In this document: positions 55,129 to 59,446 of the stretch, piece by piece
Position numbering within the stretch: position 1 is the stretch's first letter
Layout: the number at the start of each line of letters is the position of its first letter
Notes under the pieces: model-generated
Database searches by the model: none
Seen by the model: only the letters and a program-made list of their open reading frames with translations
What the model was told of the DNA's origin: nothing
Translations under genes and position numbers: made by a program
Assembly (NCBI RefSeq): GCF_001436695.1
Contig: NZ_AYZG01000051.1
Location: forward strand, 24,211-88,210
From: Lactobacillus taiwanensis DSM 21401
GTDB taxonomy: Bacteria; Bacillota; Bacilli; Lactobacillales; Lactobacillaceae
Reading direction: 5' to 3'
Length of the DNA: 64,000 nucleotides

Positions 55129-55850
55129 TGCAAATTTATACTAAATTAACTGATCTTCGTGATAAAAGGAAGTTCTTTATCCAAGTATGAAACTGCTGCT
55201 TTATTAGAAACTGGTTTAACAGCACATGGAAAACCGCTTGCAGATCATTTGGCAGCACTTGATTTGAGTAGAGCTTACGATTATGTTCAAGAATTAGCGA
55301 TTGGAAAATTGCCTCTTGACGAAATTACTATTCGTGATATTAATCGCCTTGTAACTTATTCTGATAATCCTACTAAACGAGCAGAGGCTGGTCAGTATCG
55401 TCAAATTAAGGTATGGCCTAATGGCGCACCAGAAGTACATTATGCGGATCCAAGTGATATTCCTAATGACATGCAAAAGCTAATTCAGTGGTATCAAGAA
55501 GTAGAAGGAAAAGAGCACCCAGTGAAAGTAGCTGCTATGCTTCATTTAAAGTTTGTTACTATTCATCCCTTTAGAGATGGAAATGGTCGAACTGCACGAC
55601 TTTTAATGAATTTTGAATTAGTAAAGCATGGTTATTTGATAATTAATATTCAACCAGATAAGATTAGTCGAATGCTTATATGGAAGCTTTAAAACAAGCA
55701 CAAATTGAGGATAATTATGAGTCATTTATTGAATTAGTGGCTGATTATGAGCAAGATGAATTAGATCAGCGAATAGATTTATTAACTAGGATTGAAAAAG
55801 AAAGAAAATTCGCACAAAGTCAAACTAGATTGGATAAGTTTGATAAGTAA
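55129..55850 (+). pseudogene. Fic family protein, two frame breaks
   Basis: MQIYTKLTDLRDKRKFF is followed by a stop; GSSLSKYETAALLETGLTAH continues in another frame with part of the helical N-terminal region missing. The AMPylation motif HPFRDGNGRTARLLMN is intact. A second break at about 55677 (one A short in ISRNAYMEAL) shifts the C-terminus (ALKQAQIEDNYESFIELVAD to LDKFDK). Intact relatives have 300 or more residues and transfer AMP to proteins. Two breaks plus a deletion argue for a true pseudogene rather than one sequencing error. Confidence 0.85.
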
Positions 55851-55993: not shown

Positions 55994-56016
55994 ATTAATT
56001 GACTGAGGTGAGATTG

Positions 56017-57135
56017 ATGGTTCAAGAAAATGAAGTTTTAAAAAATCCATTTATGCCAAGTTTTGGAAGAATTCCGCCAATGGTCCTAGATCAACAGACG
56101 ATTATGAATAATTATATTTTTCATTTAAATCTAGGTGATGCAAAGTATCAGACATCATTAGTTTATGGAGTTAGAGGTAGTGGAAAGACAGTTTTTCTTT
56201 TAAATGTCCAAAGAAATTATGAAAAAGAGAAAAATCATTATTTTGTTCGGTTAAACTTGGGTCAAGGAAATCTGCTTTTTCAATTATTGAGCAGTTTGCA
56301 ACAAATTTCAGGTATTGATTGGAAAGAAGTTTTAAAATCAATTCAAGGGATAAATTTATTTGGTAATGGAATGAGTTTTAAATCCGTTGAAGACATTGGA
56401 ATAATAAATTATAGCGACGTTCTAAAACATATTTTAGTAAAGCTGAAAAAAAGAGGAATTTCTATTTTAGTTGGTATTGACGAAATTGAAGTAAGCGATG
56501 ATGTTAGAGCTTTTGCCTCAGTTTATCAAACTTTAATTGGGGATGATTTAGATATTTCATTAATTATGACTGGTCTTCCCAGTAGAATTTCCGATTTACA
56601 GCATGAAAAGACATTAACTTTTTTACTGAGAAGTAATCGTATATATTTAAAGCCACTTGATAAAATGTCAGTTGAAGATAATTTTACAATGGCATTTAAG
56701 AGAGGAAACAAGACAATTTCTCCGTTAGTTATGAAAAGACTAATTGAGGGTGTAAAAGGATATGCTTATGCATTTCAGACAATAGGTTATTATGCTTGGG
56801 AGGAAAGTAAAGATGATATTAATAATCAAGTTGCTAACGAAGTAATTGATTTATCTAAATCCGATTTGTATCAAAATGCATATGAAAAATTATATACTGA
56901 GATTTCAAGTACTGATCGAAAGTTTCTAGATATAATGGCGCAATATCCGAGTTCAATAGTGCCAATTTCTTATATTGTTGATGAGCTAAAGAAAAGTAAA
57001 AATTATATTTCTGTATATCGAGCACGTTTATTAGATGATCAATTAATCTATGCTCCAGAGCGTGGATATGTAAGTTTTACGCTACCTTTCTTTTCAGATT
57101 TTATTCGATGGTATAAAGAAAATCATTTAATTTAA
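56017..57135 (+). CDS. Orc1/Cdc6- or archaeal-ATPase-like AAA protein
   Basis: 372 residues. Walker A is YGVRGSGKTVFLL (about 50-62), Walker B ILVGIDEIE (D155, E156) and sensor-like SLIMTGLPS (181-189). The C-terminal 90 residues (DRKFLDIMAQYPSSIVPISY, YISVYRARLLDDQLIY, then VSFTLPFF) look like a winged helix, as in Orc1/Cdc6 and archaeal STAND-like ATPases. The target is unknown. ATG 56017 has GAGGTG (56005-56010) upstream; an earlier in-frame start at 55999 lacks one. It sits behind the phased repeats, which it may bind. Confidence 0.75.
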   Translation: MVQENEVLKNPFMPSFGRIPPMVLDQQTIMNNYIFHLNLGDAKYQTSLVYGVRGSGKTVFLLNVQRNYEKEKNHYFVRLNLGQGNLLFQLLSSLQQISGIDWKEVLKSIQGINLFGNGMSFKSVEDIGIINYSDVLKHILVKLKKRGISILVGIDEIEVSDDVRAFASVYQTLIGDDLDISLIMTGLPSRISDLQHEKTLTFLLRSNRIYLKPLDKMSVEDNFTMAFKRGNKTISPLVMKRLIEGVKGYAYAFQTIGYYAWEESKDDINNQVANEVIDLSKSDLYQNAYEKLYTEISSTDRKFLDIMAQYPSSIVPISYIVDELKKSKNYISVYRARLLDDQLIYAPERGYVSFTLPFFSDFIRWYKENHLI

Positions 57136-57143
57136 ATAGCATT

Positions 57144-57184
57144 AATAAGCTAAGAAAAATTTTTCTGTAGCTTATTTTTTTAAT
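57144..57184 (+). terminator. rho-independent terminator
   Basis: AATAAGCTA pairs with TAGCTTATT, with an inner AGAAA/TTTCT stem, then a T run. It separates the ATPase from the next gene. Confidence 0.85.
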
Positions 57185-57191
57185 TTGTTTA

Positions 57192-57200
57192 TGATATAAT
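57192..57200 (+). promoter_or_regulatory. extended -10 promoter of the PLD-AAA gene
   Basis: TGA-TATAAT is a perfect extended -10. No -35 better than TTATTT (57172-57177) is seen. Confidence 0.65.
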
Positions 57201-57215
57201 TTTATCAAAATATTA

Positions 57216-57229
57216 CGAACATATGTACG
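57216..57229 (+). promoter_or_regulatory. LexA (SOS) box-like operator
   Basis: CGAACATATGTACG differs by one base from the Gram-positive LexA box CGAAC-N4-GTTCG. It lies 15 bp after the -10 element and 22 nt before the start codon, where a bound repressor would block transcription. Confidence 0.6.
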
Positions 57230-57250
57230 ATAGTGCGATTGGAGGGACAA

Positions 57251-59446
57251 ATGTTAACTATTTATGATTTAAAGAACAAGGTAATGCTAAATCAACCTGA
57301 TTTTTTTAATCTGGTTGAAGGCTTTGACTCTTTTAAGGGTGTTAGTTTTGTTGGTAGTTTTAAGATAATTGAAAAAGAGTTAATGCCACGCTTTAAGCAA
57401 ATTGATCTAATTTTAGGAATGGAAGACCAAAAAACTGGTAAAAATTTAGATCAGCTTTTTAATGTATCAAATAAAGTTAAAGAACTTCTTTCTGTAAGTG
57501 CTGACTTTTTGGATCGAATTGAGAATCAAACTTTGCAATTAAAATTTACTAAAGATGAATTATTTCATAGTAAATACTTTATTGTTGAAAACAAAACTGA
57601 TTTTATTATCTTTAATGGATCAATGAACCTTACTCAAAAAGCTTTAAAGCATAATCATGAAATGCTTTGGATGTATCATGGTAAAAAGAATGATTTACAA
57701 GATTTAAAAATTTATGAAGAGCATCAAAAGCTTTTTAAGCATAATTTCGAAAAAGATAGTGTTGATTATCTAGATAGAAAGATTATTAATAATCTTTACG
57801 GCAAGACGAGAAAACAAATCACGGCAATTATCGCTGATGAAGTTGTAGATAAGATTCAGCAGAATATCGTTGAAGTAAATCCAGCAGACGTTGTTAAGAT
57901 AACCAACGATGCTCAGCAAAAGGAACAAACTTATGAACTTCATCCTGAAACTGTCCAAAAAGTAGCTAAGGAGCTTTTTACTGAAAAAGGAAATAAGCGT
58001 CGAAACGAAGAAAAGGCAAGAGAAGAAGTTAAGAAAATTGTTTTTCAAGACTTTAGTGATTCTTCAGAAAATAGAGTAATAAAAGCAAGTGAACTATATC
58101 CCAAGCCTATTTGGGCACATCAAGAAGATAAGATTATTGTTGAAGATGAAAATAAATTATTCCATCCGCTTAAAGTAGATGAAAATCTTGTAACTGAAGA
58201 TGATGTGCGGACTTTTGTAAGAATAATCGAAAGTTTTCGCTTTAACAAAGTAAAAAATGAAAGTCACCAAGCACTCTCGGCGTTTATCTATTTAATGACT
58301 GCTCCAATGATTTGGAAAATTAGAGAAATATATCGTAAGTCTAATTTTTCAAAAAGTGCTGATCAAATTCCGCTTTCTATGGTATTAATCGGACGTGGGA
58401 CAACTGGAAAAACTTTATTAGTTCGTGATTATTTTAAGAAATTTACCGGGGACAATTCGCATAGTTTACAATATACCGAAATTAATGACGGAAATGCTTC
58501 TAGAACTGATAAGGCAGTGAAATTCTTAGATAATTATTTGCACTCTGCTCGTTTTATTTCTCCAATGATTGTTGATGAGTTAAACAGTAATTTCTTACAC
58601 AGTAAGGTTGCACTTAATGCAATTAAACAATGGTCCAACACTATTCAAGGAATTCATAATATTAACATTTTTGCGATGAATCATAATGCTGGTAGTAGGG
58701 AAATCAATAATCTGGAAGAAATTACGAAACGTGTTTATTATCTATCGTTTGAAGCTCCATGGCTTCCATCGAATCAGCAAGAGATTAACTATAATATGTT
58801 AATTAACGATAACAATGACCATATTTATCGATACGTTGTTTATGAATTGAATAAACGTCTTGTCAATCTTACTGGTGAAGAAGAGGCTAATTTAATCGAT
58901 GATTATTTAAGTTTAACTAAAAAAATTTTATCTAACTTGTTAAGGAAATATGGTTATTACGATAGATTAAAAGATATTTTAGGCAGTAATTATGATTATA
59001 AGATTGATCGTAATCGAATTACTTGGAAGATGTTAATTTTAGATGATCACTATGAACACATTGCCTTTACAGATGGTGATGATAAATATTTCCACGTTTC
59101 AAAAGCAATTTTTAATGATTTTAAAGCCAATGGGTATGAAAATATTAATCAGACTTTAGATAATTATTTTAATATGTTTCCTCGTGAAGCCGGAATTGCA
59201 ATCGAACAGTACGGCAATGGGATGCGTCTTGACATCGATAAGTTTGATAAATTTGTTGGTGAACCTTTAATTAGAAATCACTATAAGAAATTACACAAAG
59301 ATGAAACACAGCAAGATGATATGAAAGAATTTCTTAAAATACAGACTAAACAAACACAGGTAATGCAAGAAACTATGGAAAAGCTAACTAAGCAACAGGA
59401 AGAGAAAAATAGGAAAGGATTTTTTTCTCGTTTATTTAAACATTAG
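57251..59446 (+). CDS. phospholipase-D-type nuclease fused to AAA ATPase
   Basis: 731-residue two-domain protein. The N-terminal part (about 1-170) carries one HKD motif: H106-x-K108 in LFHSKYFIVENK and N122-GSMN-126 in FNGSMNLTQKA, as in single-HKD PLD nucleases that dimerise. A charged helical linker (about 180-300) follows. The AAA domain has Walker A LIGRGTTGKTLL (about 379-390), Walker B PMIVDELN (D442, E443) and sensor-like FAMNHNA (475-480). The tail is coiled coil (KQTQVMQETMEKLTKQQEEK) ending GFFSRLFKH. ATG 57251 has GGAGGG 5 nt upstream. Probably acts on DNA; a defence role is inferred. Confidence 0.8.
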   Translation: MLTIYDLKNKVMLNQPDFFNLVEGFDSFKGVSFVGSFKIIEKELMPRFKQIDLILGMEDQKTGKNLDQLFNVSNKVKELLSVSADFLDRIENQTLQLKFTKDELFHSKYFIVENKTDFIIFNGSMNLTQKALKHNHEMLWMYHGKKNDLQDLKIYEEHQKLFKHNFEKDSVDYLDRKIINNLYGKTRKQITAIIADEVVDKIQQNIVEVNPADVVKITNDAQQKEQTYELHPETVQKVAKELFTEKGNKRRNEEKAREEVKKIVFQDFSDSSENRVIKASELYPKPIWAHQEDKIIVEDENKLFHPLKVDENLVTEDDVRTFVRIIESFRFNKVKNESHQALSAFIYLMTAPMIWKIREIYRKSNFSKSADQIPLSMVLIGRGTTGKTLLVRDYFKKFTGDNSHSLQYTEINDGNASRTDKAVKFLDNYLHSARFISPMIVDELNSNFLHSKVALNAIKQWSNTIQGIHNINIFAMNHNAGSREINNLEEITKRVYYLSFEAPWLPSNQQEINYNMLINDNNDHIYRYVVYELNKRLVNLTGEEEANLIDDYLSLTKKILSNLLRKYGYYDRLKDILGSNYDYKIDRNRITWKMLILDDHYEHIAFTDGDDKYFHVSKAIFNDFKANGYENINQTLDNYFNMFPREAGIAIEQYGNGMRLDIDKFDKFVGEPLIRNHYKKLHKDETQQDDMKEFLKIQTKQTQVMQETMEKLTKQQEEKNRKGFFSRLFKH

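Follow-up and report, generated by a model that had tools for sequence, protein, structure and literature searches.

A probable LexA operator in the promoter of a predicted PLD nuclease–AAA+ ATPase gene of Lactobacillus taiwanensis

Our analysis of a 64,000-nucleotide stretch of the Lactobacillus taiwanensis DSM 21401 genome (the window, which lies in contig 27 of a 1.87 Mb assembly of 52 contigs) concerns a 14-bp site in the promoter of a gene predicted to encode a nuclease joined to an ATPase, here called the PLD-AAA gene. The locus comprises the following features, of which the -10 element and the ribosome-binding site were read from the sequence.

57144-57176, forward strand: imperfect inverted repeat with a T-rich second half (arms 57144-57159 and 57161-57176, 81% complementary)
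57192-57200, forward strand: extended -10, TG-A-TATAAT, ending 15 bp 5' of the 14-mer
57216-57229, forward strand: probable LexA operator CGAACATATGTACG, 9 of 10 letters of CGAAC-N4-GTTCG, with T to A at position 12
57241-57246, forward strand: ribosome-binding site GGAGGG
57251-59446, forward strand: PLD nuclease–AAA+ ATPase gene, 731 aa, by its PF13091 PLDc_2 match and aligned homologues
57476-57739, forward strand: PLD-like nuclease domain (residues 76-163) with one HxK...GSMN motif
58253-58825, forward strand: AAA+/SF3-helicase-like ATPase domain, with approximate boundaries, from invariant columns and fold matches

LexA is the bacterial DNA-damage repressor, and an earlier note on this DNA had described the 14-mer as one base off the Gram-positive LexA box, right after an extended -10 promoter. 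The nine matching letters bear out the first statement; the extended -10 is indeed upstream, and the 15 bp gap makes "right after" slightly generous. No good -35 was found upstream of the extended -10, and a sigma-70 scan requiring both hexamers returned 0 promoters. Of the gene's five further distinct promoters, four have an identical extended -10, and that of a deletion remnant in genome G148 has an eroded one (8/10 columns). Translation likely starts at ATG 57251, 21 bp 3' of the site, and not at the mechanically assigned GTG 57233, because close orthologues also have an ATG there. The inverted repeat, placed 3' of the upstream ATPase gene (stop at 57135), may be a terminator, in which case the PLD-AAA gene would form its own transcription unit; a stricter terminator scan returned none at 57144-57176. 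That ATPase gene (55999-57135), directly upstream, has weak AAA_14/AAA_16 matches, and in L. intestinalis the PLD-AAA gene is present without it at that place. A gene of the Fic family occupies 55159-55692, not far from the PLD-AAA gene, and one is found directly 3' of the PLD-AAA gene on two L. salivarius megaplasmids (L060, L061). An RNA-hairpin reading of the 14-mer was ruled out by reasoning alone, since A12 or G12 would mispair with A3.

What kind of enzyme does the gene encode? The PLDc_2 model (PF13091) matches the product with E 5.8e-9 and 36.3 bits against a cut-off of 27, which places it in the PLD superfamily, and a PLD domain was matched in 17/17 homologues, an NgoFVII-type PLD in 4/17. 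In 18 aligned sequences, with homologues ranging from 87% to 26% identity, H106, K108, GSMN(123-126) and E137 are invariant, and the candidate ATPase motifs, whose names are our own assignment, are all invariant too: Walker A IGRGTTGKT (G381-K387), Walker B D442, sensor-1 N477 and the arginine R494. Pfam AAA models reach the protein only at E 0.08-0.17. An AlphaFold2 model (mean pLDDT 80.9, pTM 0.57) gave fold matches to SauUSI (first and third) and the NgoAVII R protein (fourth) for the nuclease part, and a mixture of the poxvirus E5 and AAV Rep40 SF3 helicases with ORC/proteasome AAA+ proteins for the ATPase part, the low TM-scores making only domain-level statements safe. A family-profile search of solved structures returned none at E <= 0.1. 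The curated NCBIfam score for DpdK is 20.3 bits against a cut-off of 100, below membership of that family, and the PADLOC models for DrmC, DpdK and ZacB align in part only, at E 1.8e-7 to 1.4e-4, with no convincing family.

A PLD-like nuclease domain is common to the PLD-AAA protein, the PLD-type restriction nucleases SauUSI and NgoAVII R, and DrmC/DpdK, small defence proteins of the PLD type, the last of these being weak matches below cut-offs. The ATPase of SauUSI is an SF2 helicase, whereas that of the PLD-AAA protein is AAA+/SF3-like, and, unlike in PLD restriction and defence systems, no recognition domain was identified in the PLD-AAA protein, nor any partner gene when the window's list of open reading frames was read through. 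Most likely, the protein would use ATP to cut DNA that is foreign or unusual. A defence function is possible, with Pfam, NCBIfam and PADLOC giving the PLD domain and weak matches only. We considered whether the gene came from a phage or prophage and rejected this: there was no match in phage records, and none of 34 pattern-matching stretches in viral contigs encodes a relative.

Interpretation of the 14-mer depends on what LexA boxes look like in this genus. The recA, lexA and uvrB genes were each sought in 61 Lactobacillus genomes, and 30 loci listed per gene were examined, a box being called at no more than 2 mismatches to CGAAC-N4-GTTCG. Among these listed loci, boxes precede recA in 27/29 (the 30th, L066, has no parseable start and was left out), lexA in 29/30 (the exception, L103, has 3 mismatches) and uvrB in 26/30; when two mis-started uvrB loci were re-read, G286 gained a box and G404, which has lexA, did not. 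Four of the 61 genomes lack lexA, namely G384, G392 and G427, all three at 99% completeness, and G400 at 85%. The lexA search gave no match in G384 and G400, and in G392 and G427 only weak matches to frames 362-385 aa long, similar to those that elsewhere (L024 in the window's own genome) correspond to what we take to be HrcA-like genes. The three recA loci without a promoter box are L068 (G384), L067 (G392) and L066 (G427), and the uvrB loci of G392 (L161) and G427 (L155) have none either, uvrB of G384 falling outside the listed loci. Because near-complete genomes without lexA are also without the recA box, a natural control, the comparison indicates that these boxes belong to LexA; part of the genus (G384, G392, G427) has apparently lost SOS control. 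G400 keeps its recA box without a lexA match, an exception that possibly stems from the incomplete assembly. The uvrB box of the genus (L136-L163) carries a fixed core defect, CGAA[A/T]N4GTTCG.

The genome of the window encodes LexA, with LexA_DNA_bind and Peptidase_S24 both above their cut-offs, and has the following further boxes.

recA box TGAACGTTAGTTCG (gene orientation): 67 bp before the mechanical start
uvrB box CGAAAATACGTTCG: 71 bp before uvrB
lexA box AGAACGCCTGTTTG: in the lexA promoter
L010:1501-1514, box CAAACCTACGTTCG: 15 bp before the gene for a XerC-like tyrosine recombinase (356 aa)
Box CAAACACAAGTTCG: 31 bp upstream of an ORF of 97 aa that matches no Pfam family

The recA, lexA and uvrB boxes share the consensus; dinB, which the earlier note had named alongside them as a source for the genome's own LexA box, has none within 300 bp upstream, the best site there having 3 mismatches. 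At the 97-aa ORF, two LexA-type boxes, AAAACGTTTGTTCG and CAAACACAAGTTCG (L003:1473-1486 and 1501-1514), flank a TATAAT, and we regard its product as a candidate small SOS protein. The gap from TATAAT to the operator that follows is 2 bp at recA, 5 bp at the XerC-like recombinase gene, 8 bp at the 97-aa ORF and 15 bp at the PLD-AAA gene.

Taken as a bare pattern, the 14-mer does not rise above chance. Within the window it is the sole exact match to CGAACN4GTWCG, and matches with no more than 2 mismatches to the LexA consensus number 25 against 24.6 expected, as in shuffled sequence. A matrix built from the recA, lexA and uvrB sites of the genus, each gene weighted equally and the whole symmetrised, gives it 12.97 bits, rank 1 of 63,987 window positions (recA 15.3, lexA 15.2, uvrB 17.4, 97-aa ORF 16.8 and XerC-like recombinase 13.8 bits), and equal or better scores are expected 0.84 times per 64 kb. 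Scoring with LexA boxes, as had been suggested, therefore makes the site the best in the window without lifting it beyond chance. Across the genome, ten palindromic places have no more than 1 mismatch to CGAACN4GTTCG against about 20 expected from base composition, so that their number is no evidence, and their location is: five are promoter-proximal (57216-57229 included), one lies between convergent genes and four lie inside open frames. The perfect CGAACN4GTTCG is absent from this genome. Genome-wide box counts were dropped as evidence, as they show no enrichment (19/17 matches against 73/108 for a reversed control pattern). We also rejected a second regulon with GTACG halves, sought in the same genome as CGAACN4GTWCG with no more than 1 mismatch: the first 22 of 26 distinct places held one further intergenic GTAC-type site (L008, 235 bp from a gene), two places examined later lay inside open frames, and C33:33188 and C40:32456 fell outside the examined set.

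The significance of the site comes instead from its position and its conservation. Under a simple base-composition model, a match with no more than 1 mismatch to the LexA consensus arises by chance in a 40 bp leader with P ~4e-4. A search of 75 Lactobacillus genomes found CGAACATATGTNCG at 10 places, spread over 9 genomes; eight of these sit 21-26 bp before a copy of the PLD-AAA gene and one precedes the deletion remnant in G148, the tenth (G398, L129; T at position 12) lying in a fragmented stretch where no gene clearly follows. Conversely, each of the 8 gene copies detected at E <= 1e-100, which come from 7 of the 75 genomes, has the box, one copy in G416 being split. In the six distinct leaders, that of G148 included, 13/14 box columns are identical against 7/36 in the remaining leader (Fisher P 2.5e-6, a test that takes the columns as independent despite the relatedness of the species). 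When the window is compared with one relative at a time, 13 to 20 of 34-36 leader columns are identical, and the box is unchanged at its 13 positions other than 12. By this comparison, the 14-mer is a conserved footprint of the PLD-AAA promoter, and because its distance to the -10 differs by 1-2 bp among promoters, it is not a core promoter element.

The PLD-AAA gene has homologues 86-87% identical in L. intestinalis and several uncultured Lactobacillus MAGs, which puts the genome of the window near L. intestinalis; the copy on MAG contig L056 is 100% identical in its best segment and split over two frames. A 29% identical homologue within the genus (G359, L038) has no proper box, and G376 holds a C-terminal fragment of the gene only. 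Several copies (L124/L125, L127, L061, G130:C17 and L. salivarius plasmid matches H18-H20) are disrupted by split frames, internal deletion, stops or insertion of an IS3-family transposase, which would fit a costly or strongly selected gene.

Beyond the close relatives, the picture is patchy. We compared 21 upstream regions of 160 bp, from 5 Lactobacillus orthologues, 6 orthologues of 57-60% identity (three from named Limosilactobacillus records and three placed there by similarity) and 10 distant homologues. A box was found in 0/6 of the 57-60% promoters scanned, nor is there one at L046 and L047, broken or partly masked orthologues of the same class; promoter location and conservation with the gene thus hold within the genus and do not extend to this group. 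The ten distant homologues are 26-31% identical over their full length and up to 37% over single pieces, some being nearly identical to one another. Two of them, both at about 30% identity, have a LexA box in their own promoter and 8/10 do not: in G362, CGAACAAATGTTTG lies between TTGTCG and TATAAT, 133 bp upstream of the ATG and with a divergent gene start 84 bp away, and in G059, CGAACGTATTTTTG lies between TTGTAC and GATAAAAT, 81 bp upstream of the ATG (per-region P of 0.001 and 0.002, respectively, in 1000 shuffles with a floor of 0.001). Five homologues in other Bacilli families show no convincing box, the start of L167 being uncertain; a one-mismatch site in L168, CGAACGGGTGATCG at -142, was taken as chance, with no promoter seen there.

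How does the site compare with characterised LexA boxes? It resembles Gram-positive LexA/DinR boxes in 9/10 letters, in its promoter-proximal place, in the presence of LexA in the genome and in the consensus seen at recA, lexA and uvrB of the genus, and its single mismatch falls within the one or two deviations that define a LexA palindrome. It differs at position 12, which is A or G in 6/6 distinct promoters of the PLD-AAA gene and T in 82/82 recA, lexA and uvrB boxes, a regularity that emerged from the genus boxes here and lies outside that definition. With the Lactobacillus uvrB box it shares an architecture of one intact half-site and one half with a single defect, which is fixed at position 5 in uvrB and lies at position 12 here. 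The S. aureus recA box CGAACAAATATTCG has one fixed defect in one half, and the box of SAOUHSC_02157, CGAACATATGTTCT, has the ATAT centre of the 14-mer (PMC11442139); B. thuringiensis LexA is reported also to bind where only one half of the site is recognisable (PMC4551915). By these examples, a single fixed defect is nothing unusual in such a box. A counter-example comes from C. difficile, in which six sites showed no stable LexA binding, two of them having one damaged half, GAAC....ATTT at vanR and GAAC...TTTT at an efflux pump (PMC4234289).

It is conceivable that the 14-mer, read as CG-N-ACATATGT-N-CG, is instead bound by another repressor dedicated to this gene, or by the PLD-AAA protein acting on its own promoter, and that its likeness to a LexA box is coincidental. 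None of the six promoters has T at position 12, and across the 75 genomes a motif with the same centre is nearly confined to this gene, as a single target predicts; yet no recognisable regulator gene is adjacent among the window's open reading frames or in the L. intestinalis annotation, a chance consensus match in the 40 bp leader has the low probability given above, and the boxes of the two distant homologues are of LexA type with other centres. We consider such a regulator unlikely. Still less probable is a match kept by descent only, or a relic LexA site that has lost its function through decay at position 12: that the six promoters come from close relatives (~87% protein identity), that position 12 already varies between A and G and that the box is kept before the deleted gene in G148 would all suit it, but the surrounding leader has diverged strongly around 13 unchanged positions. 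Chance similarity with no regulation at all would accommodate the expectation of 0.84 matrix matches per 64 kb and a window match count equal to that of shuffles; the conservation of the site and its nearly exclusive position at the PLD-AAA gene leave this account with very little credit.

We therefore favour a non-canonical LexA operator before the PLD-AAA gene, at a probability of roughly three in four. The case draws on the genus consensus at recA, lexA and uvrB, the footprint and the LexA boxes of the two distant homologues; position 12 and the promoters of the 57-60% orthologues, which are without a box, speak against it. We infer that a LexA dimer just 3' of the -10, at the transcript start region, would block the promoter, and that upon DNA damage RecA filaments would trigger LexA self-cleavage, allowing the nuclease/ATPase to be made. 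An intact CGAAC half paired with a single-defect GTRCG half would be expected to yield a fairly weak operator that is released early. With the box in the promoter and kept with the gene in close relatives, the enzyme is probably made mainly upon DNA damage, and the gene is a probable new member of the SOS regulon; our search of the open-licence PMC literature found no account of an SOS-controlled PLD-AAA gene or of a Lactobacillus LexA regulon.

What might be the relevance of such control? As a tentative extension, which we hold to be rather less likely true than false, the PLD-AAA+ family could be an SOS-gated nuclease-helicase whose LexA operators were gained independently in at least three Lactobacillaceae lineages, 3' of the -10 in Lactobacillus and, with other sequences, in the promoter spacer in G362 and G059. 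If so, a dangerous DNA-degrading machine, perhaps directed against phages or plasmids, would be released only in response to single-stranded DNA, as a sign of damage or invasion. The genus data provide a table of LexA boxes with a natural control, in that near-complete genomes without lexA are also without the recA box. The SOS regulon of gut lactobacilli would gain a predicted nuclease/ATPase, and the uncharacterised PLD-AAA family would be linked to DNA damage or DNA invasion, making its function directly testable.
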